In this document: positions 3,859-18,070 of the stretch, piece by piece
Layout: each line of letters opens with the position of its first letter
How positions within the stretch are numbered: the stretch's first letter is position 1
DNA from: a virus
DNA: 25,126 nucleotides
Reading direction: 5' to 3' (one strand)
IMG/VR virus record: IMGVR_UViG_3300045240_000006
Span: 1-25,126 of that record
The notes under the pieces: model-generated
The model's input: only the letters and a program-made list of their open reading frames with translations
Told to the model about the DNA's origin: nothing
The model's database searches: none
Position numbers and translations under genes: made by a program

Positions 3859-6118
3859 AGCCGCCCCCTTGATTACCCTGCTGGCTTTCCGAAAGAAATA
3901 ACCCAGCCAGCCAATGCTCCACATCATTCAGTTCTGGCGGATTATTTAAAGCTTTTTTGAACGAGATCATTGCCTTTGATTTTGCCAATGTTTTAACAGC
4001 CGCTGGCTTCAATGGCTCTCCTTTCGCGGACGCTTTGGCCATTGCAATAAATGTAGGATCAGAGATCAGCCGATCAGCCGCTTTCATTACTTCAGGCTTG
4101 CCTTTCATCAGCGCCGAGGTGATGCCCGAGGCCAGGCCTACGCCAGGGGCCCCTACGCTGCTTGTGGCTGCCTCTGCCGCCATAATCCCGGCCGACTTCT
4201 TGGCTACATCATAGATACGCTGTATTGCAGTATCAGATCCTTCTAGCTCCTTGGTAATGGCATTCAGGCGGCCCGTAACGATGCGTTCTTTGCTGGATGC
4301 GGCAATCCCTTTGGAGACTCGATATAGATCAGCAAGATTCTGCCTTGCCTCCTTCGGCAGGTTGGCCATCAGTGCGGCTTTAGCCTGTTTGTTTTTCTCA
4401 AGGCCTTCATACCATCGGGCGAAGGTGTTGAAGTTCAGCGAACCATTTTGCGTGGCCTTTCCAAACGCATAATTCAAGGCCGATGCAGCCACATCCTGGC
4501 GCATGTTCTGCGGAACAGCAGTGATTAGCTTGACGAACTTACTGGTGTCGCCTTTGCCCAGCGCAGCAGTACCGCCCGCCAGATTCCCAACGATCGAATT
4601 GCCCAGATTCTTTCCGAATAACGACACGGTGTCGTCTTCCAGTCCTTTGCGAGTCCTGACTGCAGCCTTAGCCGCATCAATGATCTCAGTCATGCCCAGC
4701 GGCTTTACCGCGGCTTCCTGATCGGAGGTGATCAGCTCATAGAGTTTCTTCGCTAGGCCAGTATCGGCATCTTTGAAAGGTCCGCCCATGCGCGCCGCCT
4801 GTCCCACGGTCTTACGCACATCGTCAATCAGGCCATACAGCGGCTGAACTTCCGATTGCGTCTTAACGATCGATGGCGATGTGATTCCGACTTGCCCAGG
4901 ATTTTTCTCAGTAGTAGTGACCTGTTTTGGGCTCAGCTTTTTGACGATGGATTTTTCCAGGGGGCTGAGATTTTCTCGGCCACCAAGAGTTTGAATGCGC
5001 TCATCGATGAATTTCAAAGTGTCGGGGGCTGCTGCGCGAGTTCCTGCCGGAATGTTCTGGCGGATCTGCGCGTACAGGTCGTCGGCCTTCTTTTCCAGTT
5101 CATCGCCGGTCTTCAGCATTTGCCCTTTGATGTTGTCGGACAGGGTACTGAGATCCTTGGTTCCGCCCAATTCGGTCATCAGATCATCGGCGCGTCGGCC
5201 AACTGCTTGCAGGCCTTCCATCTCCTGCGAGCGAGCCGCACTGCCCGGCATCGATTTAACCGCCTGGGACAGCTCCCTGAACGATTGATTGGTACTGACG
5301 TGATCGGCCTGAAGATTGTCATCGATGCCCAGACGTTTAGCGGCGGCGATGGTTTCGGCATCAGGCGCGGCTTGACCGGCCAGAATCTGCTGAGCCTTAG
5401 TCTGCGAACGGCCAGTGCCCGTGGCCGCCTCTTTGGTGGCTGCAGACAGTTCGGGGGACGTCAACGGAGCAACTGCGGACTTAGTAGCTGCTTGTGCCGG
5501 CGGAGCGATTGGTTCTCCTGCAACTGGCGGAACTTCAGCAGCGCCTGGCTTGAGCGTCTGGGCTACCTTCTGGATTGCTCCGCTGACCGCCGGGGCTGCG
5601 CGCTCAGCCGTGGCTAAGACGGCCGGCGCCGCGGTCCTGGCGCCTTGAGCGATAGCACCTAGCTCGCCAGTCATCGGCGCAATGGCCGCCAAGGGCGCCA
5701 AGGCTTCGCCTACGGCTTGAGTCTGCTCTTGGCCTGCCTGTGTGCGCGGCGCATAGGTCAGCGCTTGCTGGCCTTGGGTGGCGGCCTGCTCGACAGCATC
5801 AGCTGCTTGTTGCGTGCCGAACTGACCAGATAGCAACTGCGCAGCCAACCCTTTCAGCGTGCCGCCGATCATCCCGATGGTGCCGCCTGTAGCGCCCGTA
5901 CCGAGAGCCAGCGCGGTTTCGCCGGTGCCGATAGCCTGCTGGCCTAATGTCAGCTCAGGAGGCTGCTGAACAGTCTCTGGCACTTGAGTGTCTGGCACTT
6001 GATTCATCTGGTCTTGGCGTGCGCGCCCAAGTACTGCGGCGATCTGTCGCGCGGCATCCTGGTCGCCGGCCGCATCGGCATTCACCAAGGCCGTTTCAAG
6101 CTGCTGGAGAGTTGCCAT
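3845..6118 (-). CDS. DNA ejection protein, P22 gp16-like position
   Basis: This 757-aa protein is rich in Ala, Gln, Gly and Lys. It opens with a helical segment (LQQLETALVNADAAGDQDAA), then a Gly-rich hydrophobic zone (about 60-115), an Ala-rich zone to about residue 200, and a long helical region with charged stretches. Position and composition match the largest ejection protein of P22-like phages (P22 gp16, 609 aa). These proteins are packed in the capsid and enter the host envelope to form a DNA channel. Sequence similarity to gp16 is not obvious by eye, so the call rests on order (gp7-gp20-gp16) and composition. GAGG lies 8 nt before the ATG. Confidence 0.75.
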   Translation of the reverse strand: MATLQQLETALVNADAAGDQDAARQIAAVLGRARQDQMNQVPDTQVPETVQQPPELTLGQQAIGTGETALALGTGATGGTIGMIGGTLKGLAAQLLSGQFGTQQAADAVEQAATQGQQALTYAPRTQAGQEQTQAVGEALAPLAAIAPMTGELGAIAQGARTAAPAVLATAERAAPAVSGAIQKVAQTLKPGAAEVPPVAGEPIAPPAQAATKSAVAPLTSPELSAATKEAATGTGRSQTKAQQILAGQAAPDAETIAAAKRLGIDDNLQADHVSTNQSFRELSQAVKSMPGSAARSQEMEGLQAVGRRADDLMTELGGTKDLSTLSDNIKGQMLKTGDELEKKADDLYAQIRQNIPAGTRAAAPDTLKFIDERIQTLGGRENLSPLEKSIVKKLSPKQVTTTEKNPGQVGITSPSIVKTQSEVQPLYGLIDDVRKTVGQAARMGGPFKDADTGLAKKLYELITSDQEAAVKPLGMTEIIDAAKAAVRTRKGLEDDTVSLFGKNLGNSIVGNLAGGTAALGKGDTSKFVKLITAVPQNMRQDVAASALNYAFGKATQNGSLNFNTFARWYEGLEKNKQAKAALMANLPKEARQNLADLYRVSKGIAASSKERIVTGRLNAITKELEGSDTAIQRIYDVAKKSAGIMAAEAATSSVGAPGVGLASGITSALMKGKPEVMKAADRLISDPTFIAMAKASAKGEPLKPAAVKTLAKSKAMISFKKALNNPPELNDVEHWLAGLFLSESQQGNQGGGYVIH

Positions 6119-10538: not shown

Positions 10539-11942
10539 TCAGACCGCCAACGGCTCTAGCTGAGCCTCCAGCCTAGCGATGGATATGTGACTATCGCTGT
10601 TGCCCTTGAAGCGCTGGATGCGCCAGTTACGCATGATGCCCTGGCGGCGCCATGCGATGCGCTTGGCTCGCTCGCCAATGCCGCCAACGATGACGAACTT
10701 CTCTTGGCTCCACATTTCGCCATCGATCGAGTAAGAGGTACTGATCGTTGGGTTTATGCCCAGTGCGACATGGCCAGTCAGGCAGACCAATTCCAGTTCA
10801 TGAAAGACTGCGCCCATGCTTTCGTTGTAGATGATGGTCGTGCCGAATTCCCAGCGGGCCATGTCGCCATACTGGGTCGATAGGCTGGAATCCAGATAAC
10901 CCAGTTTGCTCGATGTAGGGTCGCCGCATTTCCATTGATCAAATACCCACACAAGGTTTTTGGCGCGGTATTGAGAGAAGTCGACTATAGAGCTGGTCAT
11001 GTAGAACCAAAGCGGCTCCTGCACCGCAGCAGATCCCGCCAGGTCGTATACAACAACCCTGTCAGGCAGATGAACCCATAGATGCTGATGGCCTTTGTCT
11101 ACGCGCTTCTCAAGCACCACGAGAGCCAGCTGAGCTTCTGTGTATGTAGTCAGGATCTGATCAATCTCACGAGTGGAGATCTTGGTCGCAGAGCCGTTGG
11201 CGCCAATGTAAATGGCCGGAGCCTCATTGCGGCCACTTCCAAGGAACGCCAGGGCATCAGTAAGCTCGCAAACCGCATGAGTTCCTACCGCGCCTTTCTG
11301 GATCAATGCGCCCGCAATACGCTGGAATGGGAATAGGCTGCCTCCAATGTTGTCGAAGATTTCCACGGTATAGCGGTTGACGGCATAGACCTCGTTACGG
11401 ATTTTCTTAAGGGCTTTCACCGGATCTGGATCGGCTTCTGAGCTTCCGTATTTCAGTGGGTTTACTGCGAATGGATCGTTCAGCTCGGTGACCACGAGTG
11501 ATGTCCCATCCGTGGTCATGAAGTAACCATCAACCCAGATCACGTCGAGAACAGTGCCGAGATCCGGATCCGTTACCCTGGTCAGAGTTGAGCCTTGCAG
11601 GTAGTACAGGCTGCCGCCCGAGGCAATGGCCAAGCGGTCGAAGGAGTAATCCAAAGACACTTCCGTGGAGCCGCCCACATCGCCCAGCACATTAACCGTG
11701 CCGCTGCTAGTGATGTTCACGAGCTTTGTGCCCATGACCCGATAGTAAGAGCCATTCCAATTGATGCCTCCGCGATCAATGCCAGGCCCTTCGCCCTGCT
11801 GAATGATCCCCTCAGCCGGCCGCAGATAACCCTTGGCAATGCCATTGTCTTTCGGCACTGGAATCAGATTCACCGGATAAGACGACCTGAAGTCCGCATC
11901 CGAATCAGTGTAGGTTCCGTTTAATACTGGAATCTGGGTCAT
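10539..11942 (-). CDS. P22 gp10-like packaged-DNA stabilisation protein
   Basis: This 467-aa protein (P22 gp10 has 472) has the family look: an N-terminus on target (IPVLNGTYTDSDADFRSSYP), a series of beta-propeller-like strands (DYSFDRLAIASGGSLYYL, then VIWVDGYFMTTDGT), and a conserved centre with LNDPFAVNPLKYGSSEADPD. It belongs to the tail-hub factor of P22-like phages, which binds below gp4 and closes the head after packaging. The start overlaps the previous stop as TAATG. The order gp4, gp10, needle is kept, but a repeat-bearing fibre-like gene is inserted between gp4 and gp10. Confidence 0.9.
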   Translation of the reverse strand: MTQIPVLNGTYTDSDADFRSSYPVNLIPVPKDNGIAKGYLRPAEGIIQQGEGPGIDRGGINWNGSYYRVMGTKLVNITSSGTVNVLGDVGGSTEVSLDYSFDRLAIASGGSLYYLQGSTLTRVTDPDLGTVLDVIWVDGYFMTTDGTSLVVTELNDPFAVNPLKYGSSEADPDPVKALKKIRNEVYAVNRYTVEIFDNIGGSLFPFQRIAGALIQKGAVGTHAVCELTDALAFLGSGRNEAPAIYIGANGSATKISTREIDQILTTYTEAQLALVVLEKRVDKGHQHLWVHLPDRVVVYDLAGSAAVQEPLWFYMTSSIVDFSQYRAKNLVWVFDQWKCGDPTSSKLGYLDSSLSTQYGDMARWEFGTTIIYNESMGAVFHELELVCLTGHVALGINPTISTSYSIDGEMWSQEKFVIVGGIGERAKRIAWRRQGIMRNWRIQRFKGNSDSHISIARLEAQLEPLAV

Positions 11943-15579: not shown

Positions 15580-15600
15580 GACAAAGGGGCCGAAGCCCCT
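15580..15600 (-). terminator. UUCG-loop terminator after coat gene
   Basis: On the minus strand AGGGGC, a UUCG tetraloop closed by C-G, and GCCCCT (15585-15600) are followed by TTGTCTT. This is a compact, very stable intrinsic terminator shape with a short U-tract. It would lower transcription from the coat gene into the tail genes and so keep coat protein in excess. Confidence 0.75.
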
Positions 15601-15612
15601 GAATCGTTGAGA

Positions 15613-16884
15613 TTAGGTCTGACTGAAGAGGATCAGGCCGGCCATCTCAGGCTGTGTGCACACAACACCGAAGAGGGTATCGACGCGGTACTTGGTCTTC
15701 AGGGTGTTGATGTCGAACTGCTTGGTGAAGACCAGTTCGATACCCTGCTCAGTGCTGCCGCGCATCACTGCCGCGCCAGTACCTTCTGGAACCGAGTAGC
15801 GGCCCGGCAGGATCTCGAATGCATCCTTGTGCCAGAACGGGTTCACGTAGGCTGATACGGTGTTCAGGAACACGATGGCCGCCGTCGCAGAAGGAACGAT
15901 GGTGACGTTCTGATACTGCTTCTCAGCGTCAGTGCCGCCCTGAGCAGAGATGATTGGCGGGCTGATGGTCATGGTGGTTGCTGAGTCAACCGAGATAACC
16001 CGGAAGGTCTTCAGCTGGCCGGTATCCACTTTGGTGATGTGGTGGACAGCGTTTACGCCGGCAACGGTGAACGAATCGCCCGCGACCACGTTAGTGGTGC
16101 TGGAGATGGTGATCCGCTGATAACGGTTATCGACGTTGGACATCTCGCCAGTGGCGGCTACCGAAGTCGCCTTCGGAATCCAGTAGTTGACGGCTGCGGT
16201 CAGGGTGCTGACGGTCAGAGCGCCGCCGCCTGCTGCTGCTGCGATGCGGTTTGTGTAGTCGAGCTTGTAGGTTTCGAAGCTTGCAACCTGGCCAACGAAG
16301 GCTTTCTCATAAGCCGAGTCAGTTTTCTTGTTGCCGAACGAGCGGGAAGCAATCGACAGGTTGTTGGCCATGCCGTTGTAATCGCGAGTCGACAGAGCCA
16401 GGTAACGGTCGAGACCGCTAATGCCCTGCTCGTTCATGATGGCCTCACACTGGGCAACGTCATCGAAACCGGCTGCGGCTGCGGTGCGCTTCACGACCAG
16501 GGTGCCTTGCTGAACGGCAACGTTCATGACTGCAACGTTGATGTCACTGGCCAGCTTGTCTTTGGCTGCTTTGCCCAGGCGGTTCTCTTGCAGCGCATCA
16601 CGCAGTTGCTTGGCGTCCATGATCCATGGCGAAGAGCGACTGAAGCCGATGGTAGCCGGAACGGAGAGCTGAGTCTGGTCTACGAAGTTTGAAGTTTGAT
16701 CCATACCGCTGAACGACTGGGCGATGTACGGCATCGGACGCCAGATGGTGTCGTTGCTGCGCTCCATGGATTGTTGATCGGTGTTAAACGTGGAGACGTT
16801 ACGCGACAAAACCAACTGGTCTTCGAAGCCTTCCAGAAGATTTTCGAACGCTACAACTTCTTCTTTTGAGAAACTGTTAGACAT
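15613..16884 (-). CDS. Major coat protein, P22 gp5-like
   Basis: This 423-aa protein (P22 coat has 430) carries the family pattern: an N-terminal helix (EEVVAFENLLEGFEDQLVLS), DTIWRPMPYI, and the long spine segment with LGKAAKDKLASDINVAVMNV. The middle I-domain-like beta region spans about residues 225-340 (NYWIPKATSV, VVAGDSFTVAGVNAV). A C-terminal part follows with SVPEGTGAAVMRGSTEQGIE and FGVVCTQPEMAGLILF. It builds the icosahedral shell with an HK97-type fold. It sits after the scaffold gene behind a 244-nt structured leader and is followed by an intrinsic terminator, which fits a gene needing its own expression level. Confidence 0.93.
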   Translation of the reverse strand: MSNSFSKEEVVAFENLLEGFEDQLVLSRNVSTFNTDQQSMERSNDTIWRPMPYIAQSFSGMDQTSNFVDQTQLSVPATIGFSRSSPWIMDAKQLRDALQENRLGKAAKDKLASDINVAVMNVAVQQGTLVVKRTAAAAGFDDVAQCEAIMNEQGISGLDRYLALSTRDYNGMANNLSIASRSFGNKKTDSAYEKAFVGQVASFETYKLDYTNRIAAAAGGGALTVSTLTAAVNYWIPKATSVAATGEMSNVDNRYQRITISSTTNVVAGDSFTVAGVNAVHHITKVDTGQLKTFRVISVDSATTMTISPPIISAQGGTDAEKQYQNVTIVPSATAAIVFLNTVSAYVNPFWHKDAFEILPGRYSVPEGTGAAVMRGSTEQGIELVFTKQFDINTLKTKYRVDTLFGVVCTQPEMAGLILFSQT

Positions 16885-17128
16885 GATAAAGCCCTTTGAA
16901 TTGATGAGAAATTGAGTGCGGAATGCACTGTCTTAACTCATCCATTGGGGCTGGATGGTGGCCTTTCGTGGAGCGCTGCCGGTGGGATGGCGAGTCCTTT
17001 AATTGCTTAAAACTGAAGCCGTGCGGGGCATCACTCCCGCGTCTCCCCGGTTATTTCCGGGTTGATCCTTCTGATCCAACAACTTCAATACGGTGAAACT
17101 ATACAGCGCAGCTGAATTAAATCAAATT
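16885..17128 (-). promoter_or_regulatory. Structured leader RNA candidate before coat gene
   Basis: These 244 nt contain no plausible ORF but at least four hairpins when read toward the coat gene: CCCGG/CCGGG (17046-17061, 6-nt loop), GCGGG/CCCGC (17023-17040, 8-nt loop), CATCCA/TGGATG (16939-16957, 7-nt loop) and AGTGC/GCACT (16915-16929, 5-nt loop). No hairpin has a proper U-tract, so they are not plain terminators. GGATCA also occurs twice near 17062-17077. The segment is by far the longest non-coding stretch in an operon where other genes overlap. It may be an autoregulatory 5' leader, an RNA processing site or a promoter region. Confidence 0.55.
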
Positions 17129-18025
17129 TCAGCTCTTCTGCTTGCGCTTCTGTTCGCGCTTGTACTGCATAACCTTGGACATATCGCCGGTCTTCTCGGC
17201 TTCAGCGCGCAGTCGCTCAAGAGTTGAGTCAGTCGATCCCGCCACTCGGCCCGTCCCGGTGATGGTCTTCTCTGGCGGCGGTGCAGACTTCTTGTTTTGA
17301 ACTTTCAATTGAGTCTCCAGTTTCGCGATGGCGAAGGCGAATTTAACAGCGTCTTTGATTCCCGCAAGTTCTGCGGCCTTCTTGGGGTTCTTGCCGAGAG
17401 CGTAAACAACCAATGCCGAGTTGTCGGCGCCTTGAATGATGATCCCTTGCTGGGTGACATCCAATAGGTTGCGGACGTTCTCTTCAGCGTCTTCGAAGTC
17501 CTTAACTTTGAGCCCGGTCTTGGCCGTGTTGTAGGTGTTCAGCCGGCCTTCCCACTCGGTCTTCTGCTGCTGCTCGGCCTGCTGCTGTTGATGCTGGTGC
17601 TGTTCGATATCGCGCTTGCGGTCGTGCCACTCAGTCAGGCGCTGCTCGAACTTCTCGGCGTCCCAATCAATGTCGTCGTCTTCCATGCTCGGTTTCTTGC
17701 CCAGCACCGGAACATTGGCGGCCTGCTCAGGCTTCTTCAGTTGTGCCTGGAGCTCACGGATAGTCTTCTGGGCTTCGCGGTGCTGTTTGCGTAGATCCTT
17801 CACCCAAGTTGGCGCAGAGGCCTGCTCTTCCTCTTCTTCTGGCTGCTTTTCGCCGGCGATGGTTACAACAACATCGTCTTCGTCGGATTCCTCTTCCTGC
17901 TCTTCTTGTTCCTCTTCGCACTCTTCTTCTAGCTGCTCTTCCTGCTCGCCGCCCAGGTCATTACCTTCGCCATCAGTGATGCCCATCAGGAAATGGTGAA
18001 GGGTGCGGTGTACAAATTGATTCAT
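17129..18025 (-). CDS. Scaffolding protein, P22 gp8-like
   Basis: I use ATG 18025, which has GGAGAG about 6 nt upstream; the frame extends 9 codons more without a ribosome site. The 298-aa protein (P22 scaffold has 303) has a very acidic N-terminal zone (about 30-70, long Glu runs), a helical middle with a Gln/His run at about residues 140-155, and a C-terminal helix pair ending in MSKVMQYKREQKRKQKS. That basic end matches the coat-binding helix-turn-helix of P22 scaffold in position and charge. The protein directs procapsid assembly and leaves before or during packaging. The gene lies between portal and coat, as in P22. Confidence 0.9.
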   Translation of the reverse strand: MNQFVHRTLHHFLMGITDGEGNDLGGEQEEQLEEECEEEQEEQEEESDEDDVVVTIAGEKQPEEEEEQASAPTWVKDLRKQHREAQKTIRELQAQLKKPEQAANVPVLGKKPSMEDDDIDWDAEKFEQRLTEWHDRKRDIEQHQHQQQQAEQQQKTEWEGRLNTYNTAKTGLKVKDFEDAEENVRNLLDVTQQGIIIQGADNSALVVYALGKNPKKAAELAGIKDAVKFAFAIAKLETQLKVQNKKSAPPPEKTITGTGRVAGSTDSTLERLRAEAEKTGDMSKVMQYKREQKRKQKS

Positions 18026-18070
18026 GGTTCTCTCCATTGCTCGGGCACTCAATGGCGGCCCGGTTGCCGG

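Follow-up and report, generated by a model that had tools for sequence, protein, structure and literature searches.

What fills the space between the scaffold and coat genes of a phage when it holds no gene of its own? The question is raised by a 25,126-nt stretch of viral DNA (positions 1 to 25,126 of IMG/VR virus record IMGVR_UViG_3300045240_000006; hereafter, the window), in which the scaffold stop at 17129 and the coat start at 16884, both on the minus strand, leave the 244-nt gap that had been described in an initial annotation of the letters alone. That annotation saw no plausible ORF in the gap, and the sense strand indeed holds no closed ORF of more than 29 codons; an open ATG frame close to the end of the gap is out of frame with coat. 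The four short stems that it listed are all present where it had placed them (stems a to d, Table 1), and none of them is followed by a U-tract terminator. A terminator of the coat gene's own had also been claimed, and a hairpin does stand behind the gene, with the reservation that such sites are no commoner in the scan than chance predicts (10 versus 8.1 expected, sd 3.2).

The folding energy of the leader is mildly unusual (z = -1.93, with 3 of 200 shuffles as good), and because nested folding of a single sequence gives so mild a signal (z about -2), the case for structure rests on comparison. The region of stem c covaries across many phages; the two 5' stems, a and b, occur in the window and one relative and are supported by the compensating changes in that relative.

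Table 1. Coordinates of the coat and scaffold leaders and of flanking features in the window
Feature	Coordinates	Strand	Sequence or basis
Terminator-like hairpin after coat	15585..15600	-	terminator scan
Coat gene, P22 type	15613..16884	-	phrog_283, E 4.8e-77 (PHROG profile)
Shine-Dalgarno-like AAAGGG of coat	16892..16897	-	sequence; coat ATG at 16884
P3 helix	16903..16942	-	GATGAG (16942-16937)/CTCATC (16908-16903), round hairpin AGTGC/GCACT 16929-16915
Pseudoknot 2 (PK2)	16937..16963	-	GGC-CAC-CATCC-A-GCC-CCAAT-GGATG-AG; covarying helices and strict grammar match
Pseudoknot 1 (PK1)	16976..16997	-	GGA-CTC-GCC-A-TCC-CACC-GGC-AG; two covarying helices
5' domain	17015..17086	-	closing stem GAAGTTGT/ACGGCTTC round hairpins 17076-17064, 17061-17046, 17040-17023
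Stem a of the initial annotation	17061-17046	-	CCCGG/CCGGG
Stem b of the initial annotation	17040-17023	-	GCGGG/CCCGC
Stem c of the initial annotation	16957-16939	-	CATCC/GGATG
Stem d of the initial annotation	16929-16915	-	AGTGC/GCACT
Sigma70-like promoter of coat unit	17098..17125	-	TTGATT 17125-17120, 16-nt spacer, TATAGT 17103-17098
Scaffold gene	17129..18025	-	phrog_648, E 4e-63; ATG 18025 probable start, SD GGAGAG 18035-18030
Scaffold-leader pseudoknot	18040..18068	-	GGC-AAC-CGGGC-C-GCC-ATTGAGT-GCCCG-AG, right behind portal stop; strict grammar match

Conserved core of the coat leader

As judged from the sequences, the coat leader is a 5' UTR headed by a likely promoter, and what is conserved in it is a core of two tandem H-type pseudoknots. 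Its parts follow one another in the order likely promoter, 5' domain, PK1, PK2, a helix competing with PK2 (P3), Shine-Dalgarno (SD) sequence and coat ATG. PK1 and PK2 share a plan, with an L1 ending in C, a one-base L2 and AG behind the second helix, and the core of the long leaders can be written as GGnTTCGCCAnCC...GGCAG...GGyNGCCATCCrGCC...GGATGAG...hairpin...CTCATyC, then SD and ATG. The earlier picture of four simple hairpins has to be replaced: the conserved part is formed by the two pseudoknots and the competing helix, PK1 had been missed, stem c is the S2 helix of PK2, and stems a and b fall in the 5' domain.

Covariation was assessed in 25 divergent leaders aligned by MAFFT, with shuffles and with partners slid by 1-3 columns as controls. 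In the four helices of the pseudoknots, taken together with the base of P3, 97.5% of cells are paired versus 27-47% when slid, and the observed covariation is reached by 0 of 500 shuffles. Two-sided changes are found in six pairs and both pseudoknots covary; the third S2 pair of PK1 is seen as C-G, G-C, U-A and A-U, and PK2 S1 is flipped from GGC/GCC to GCC/GGC in three loci (L003, L097, L152). P3 shares GATG with PK2 and would therefore compete with it; it is paired in 96% of cells of the same 25 leaders, and, being conserved and complementary but showing no pair with a two-sided change, it is plausible rather than proven by covariation. SD accessibility with PK2 occupied went up in 16 of 17 leaders and slightly down in the window, a result that was dropped as evidence because blocking some bases trivially frees others.

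The suggestion of a structured RNA with compensatory changes outside Rfam was borne out by the changes in both pseudoknots and by the database itself: among the Rfam 15 covariance models none matches the leader of the window with E allowed up to 10, a tRNA elsewhere is all that reaches the gathering score in the 12 member loci, L003 gives nothing and L199 sub-threshold noise only. The element is described neither in Rfam nor in the literature searched, a coverage outside which most subscription journals lie. We regard it as highly probable that the conserved RNA element is real. Two pseudoknots of the same plan in tandem look like the tandem aptamers of a small-molecule riboswitch, for which the lack of an Rfam match would also speak, but few loop bases are fixed, S2 is free to vary, a typical expression platform is absent and the associated genes encode structural proteins only, which makes such a switch very improbable.

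A likely promoter and lineage-specific 5' additions

The promoter-like site of the window has 9/12 consensus matches and, taken alone, is not above chance. Its TTGATT and TATAGT are retained with differing spacers in four other loci (L001, L002, L003, L145), and promoter-like sites between scaffold and coat are enriched across the leader set (combined p ~5e-10 versus windows of the same loci, with kin loci counted as independent), although no recognisable promoter was found in the leaders of L099, L103, L164, L167 and L200. The recurrence of such a site after the scaffold stop in relatives supports the earlier idea of a separately controlled coat unit. It had also been proposed that the gap is a promoter region, and of this the promoter-like site stands. 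That there is nothing more than a promoter with incidental hairpins, as the z of just -1.9 in single-sequence folding might suggest, is contradicted by the covariation at both the coat and the scaffold leader, by conservation downstream of the promoter and by the five leaders without one, and is hardly credible.

The 5' part of the leader varies by lineage. The most conserved stretch of the window's 5' domain recurs in L002 alone among 2.9 million viral contigs, and between the two the stems change in a compensatory manner (GATC/GATC to GATA/TATC; CCCGG/CCGGG to CCCGC/GCGGG). L003 (3645-3890) and L199 (2840-2965) have another structured insert between promoter and PK1, with compensations of its own (GTGAGTG/CACTCAC to GTGGGTG/CACCCAC; GCGCA/TGCGC to CCGGA/TCCGG). 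These 5' inserts are modular additions. In L145, at ~11640-11680 (+), an attenuator-like element, the intrinsic-terminator-like hairpin GGCCCGG...CCGGGCC TTTT, is located between the coat promoter and PK1. Attenuation, considered because of a hairpin and U-run in L099 and L145, was rejected as a general explanation, since the window, like others, lacks an adequate U-tract.

Spread among relatives

The comparison drew on 80 IMG/VR loci whose coat gene is related (69-91% identical); in most of them the gap between scaffold and coat is 9-27 nt and in a minority 146-350 nt. At E below 0.01, a covariance model recognises the core in the window and in 16 members of this set of 80; about 39 other viral loci, counted with duplicate contigs, were recognised as well. 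Further leader loci came from pattern scans of viral contigs. The core is present in about 48 IMG/VR loci (some of them duplicate contigs), with a P22-type coat gene in each, and the coats behind it diverge to 34% (L193) and 49% (L200) identity. As to the doubt expressed in the initial annotation, that related phages might lack the stems or their covariation, most close coat relatives do lack the coat leader, whereas those that bear it show covariation. This patchy distribution requires 11 changes on the coat tree, at least seven of them forced by well supported branches, and fits either an old element that was often lost or one that moved.

Other searches returned little. BLASTN of the leader alone against phages gave chance matches only, and of 99 loci that were taken from a genome-wide DNA pattern scan and searched with the model, none was clearly above chance; the pattern of that scan is not strict enough where genomes are rich in GC. 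A search for prophages in 300 genomes from the genus to which the Pseudomonas baetica locus (L207) belongs yielded 12 with phrog_283 coats; the nine with the strongest coat matches (L399-L407) are without an R1 match, and the five that were inspected by eye have a different layout.

Three of these Pseudomonas-genus prophages (L399, L400, L403), with a phrog_283 coat of ~385 aa, carry, before scaffold, CCGGATGG- and GGCCGGATGGCC-type hairpins that recur and have GGAT in the loop; in L399 and L400 they stand before the coat gene too. These are possibly another shared operator or CsrA/RsmA-like sites. In two separate lineages (L191:1402, minus strand; L198:2255, plus strand) the coats seem to bear a hydrophobic N-terminal extension of ~35-50 residues, with the leader still directly in front. 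In phage IME_EC2 the coat-leader model matches marginally (E 0.031) at L397:805-922, ahead of a small gene that directly follows portal.

A pseudoknot before the scaffold gene

The matches that rank next in the covariance search are partial and weak, and they cluster ~930-1000 nt upstream of coat, i.e., just before scaffold. In the scaffold leader there is one pseudoknot, built on the PK2 plan, which adjoins the ribosome-binding site and ends 5-15 nt ahead of the SD. By a simple grammar it is found in 45 of 51 non-redundant related loci, against null rates of 5.5% for random windows and 2.8% for shuffles, and most of the coat relatives, though lacking the coat leader, keep it. In an independent MAFFT alignment, with three differently placed rows kept, 97.2% of cells pair and S2 covaries, its variants being CGGGC/GCCCG, CGGGG/CCCCG, CATCC/GGATG, CACCC/GGGTG, CGCCC/GGGCG, CGTGC/GCACG and CAGCG/CGCTG. 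Over the 80 loci a strict grammar gives 98 sense versus 8 antisense matches. On the minus strand of the window it marks three sites, the scaffold knot, PK2 and a site inside a tail gene (5603-5630), the last of which is taken as chance (0.4 expected per strand).

Within one phage the scaffold and coat copies differ in S2 sequence and have in common the fold, an L1 ending in C and the trailing AG. A CsrA/RsmA site at GGATG was ruled out, as scaffold copies have GCCCG, GGGTG, GGGCG or GCACG there, with compensation, and a reading of the window's scaffold knot as GGGC/GCCC plus CATTG/CAATG was dropped for the parse common to relatives. The longest scaffold ORF opens at TTG 18052 (-), inside the knot; from the positions of the SD and the pseudoknot, the start is probably the SD-led ATG of Table 1. 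The original observation is thus confirmed and is larger than first noted, the same pseudoknot standing before scaffold almost everywhere in these phages, and this part, which lies outside the gap to which attention had been drawn, is the most informative one.

The knot extends well beyond the close relatives. It occupies the scaffold position in 10 of 10 distant phages outside the P22 group (PfAn1, MW202867, MW202475, CUS-3, Lumpael, C130_2, Aeromonas 4_4512, PVA1, Vibrio 1.036 and Sphingopyxis VSN-002; p 0.007-0.017 each), and where, as in several of them, genes are inserted between portal and scaffold, it stays with scaffold. In Sphingopyxis phage VSN-002, the 120-nt scaffold-coat gap (L384:2943-3061) contains a further candidate knot, CAGC-GAC-CTCC-G-GCTG-AAAC-GGGAG-AG, that the model missed. 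A phrog_648 scaffold is encoded by the window, by P22 and by every distant phage examined. The grammar finds the knot in 0 of 4 members of the P22 group (P22, IME10, AH02, Vibrio 1.275), and a weak candidate in P22 was rejected because IME10 breaks the pairing. These four stand together on the coat tree, apart from the rest, so the presence of the knot follows the tree.

A candidate operator for capsid synthesis

The structures described above are well supported, and from them we infer a ligand and an effect on coat, the latter of either sign. The scaffold and coat copies share a fold and few fixed bases, S2 not among them, which suits recognition of shape by one protein. The scaffold protein of P22 (gene 8) represses its own synthesis post-transcriptionally when unassembled, and this, taken together with the location of the sites at genes of assembly partners, makes free scaffold the leading candidate. 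With moderate confidence, we propose that the knot acts in cis as an operator through which capsid synthesis is controlled autogenously, with the scaffolding protein as its most likely ligand, so that the earlier suggestion of a leader bound by coat or scaffold protein is retained as plausible. To a broader statement we would give even chances: a new RNA family, a pseudoknot operator reading free scaffold, would stand before scaffold in most non-P22 members of the P22-like capsid lineage, with a tandem copy before coat, and one assembly protein would control both shell components by shape-specific RNA binding.

Unassembled scaffold, as it accumulates, would bind the knot beside its own SD and scaffold translation would fall; since the knot abuts the SD, simple occlusion would suffice there. 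The coat-leader knots are ~50-115 nt ahead of the start codon, where simple occlusion is less obvious, and for this reason we propose that they act through the choice between PK2 and P3 and/or by shielding the coat mRNA at its 5' end. Where a phage has the coat leader, its additional pair of knots would allow the same protein to adjust coat synthesis, up or down, and coat, made as a separate promoter-led unit, would be kept in step with scaffold.

Against scaffold as the ligand stands P22 itself, where scaffold autoregulation was described and no supported knot is present. Scaffold and coat genes always co-occur in the loci examined, so their presence cannot tell the two ligands apart, and free coat might bind the same cis-regulatory pseudoknot, its build-up shutting off scaffold, and coat as well in phages with the leader. 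The presence of both genes fits this equally well, the tandem knots precede coat itself, and RNA phages use their coat proteins as repressors of translation; the universal site is, however, at scaffold and not at coat, most of the phages regulate coat without a knot, and the P22 precedent is a scaffold protein, which leaves coat an unlikely ligand. Another possibility is that the knots bind a host factor, such as a ribosomal or other RNA-binding protein, or that they need no protein and serve the abundant capsid mRNAs by enhancing translation, as a standby site for ribosomes or by stabilising the 5' end. In many leaders PK1 follows the likely start of transcription at a short distance, as 5' stabilisers do, and the widely differing hosts would suit a conserved host factor. 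We nonetheless find this explanation rather doubtful: that the knots of these loci are restricted to the scaffold gene and the coat gene, and that the P22 clade lacks a knot despite common enteric hosts, both point to a phage ligand.

Comparison with known systems

In T7, the coat gene forms a unit with its own promoter and a terminator behind it (phi10 - gene 10 - Tphi). The coat unit described here may resemble it, with a promoter-like site before coat and a terminator-like hairpin after, and differs in that the site is sigma70-like and not a phage promoter, in the pseudoknot leader and in that terminator sites are not above chance. Autoregulation of the P22 scaffold has been known for decades; to our knowledge, its RNA target has not been defined. 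Gene 8 of P22 shares with the scaffold genes studied here the family (phrog_648), the place in the operon and, as we propose, post-transcriptional control by unassembled scaffold; unlike them, P22 and its group have no supported knot.

An autoregulatory pseudoknot operator has been described for gene 32 of T4, T2 and RB69, and the same work mentions one in S15/rpsO, a ribosomal protein gene (PMC3014915). As in gene 32, an H-type pseudoknot is found in the 5' UTR of the gene of an abundant phage protein, with autogenous translational control proposed. The sequence is unrelated, the genes encode scaffold and coat instead of a ssDNA-binding protein, and the scaffold knot is directly at the SD with tandem copies at coat. 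The gene 32 type, a 5' UTR pseudoknot near the ribosome-binding site, is matched by the scaffold knot, the coat knots lying farther off; we claim a likeness in working and no membership of that class, binding of the gene product being a proposal here. Ribosomal protein operators such as that of S15/rpsO are similar in having a pseudoknot at the translational operator of the protein's own gene, as we propose here, and different in that the genes in question are phage assembly genes.

Meaning for the P22-like capsid lineage

Large DNA phages have to keep their output of coat and scaffold in the correct proportion. The knots described here probably act as a switch that matches the production of capsid proteins to capsid assembly, a compact and widely conserved RNA element being found at a fitting place in relatives. 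Binding of the knot by scaffold, if it occurs, would give a capsid-assembly protein a new activity, that of binding RNA.
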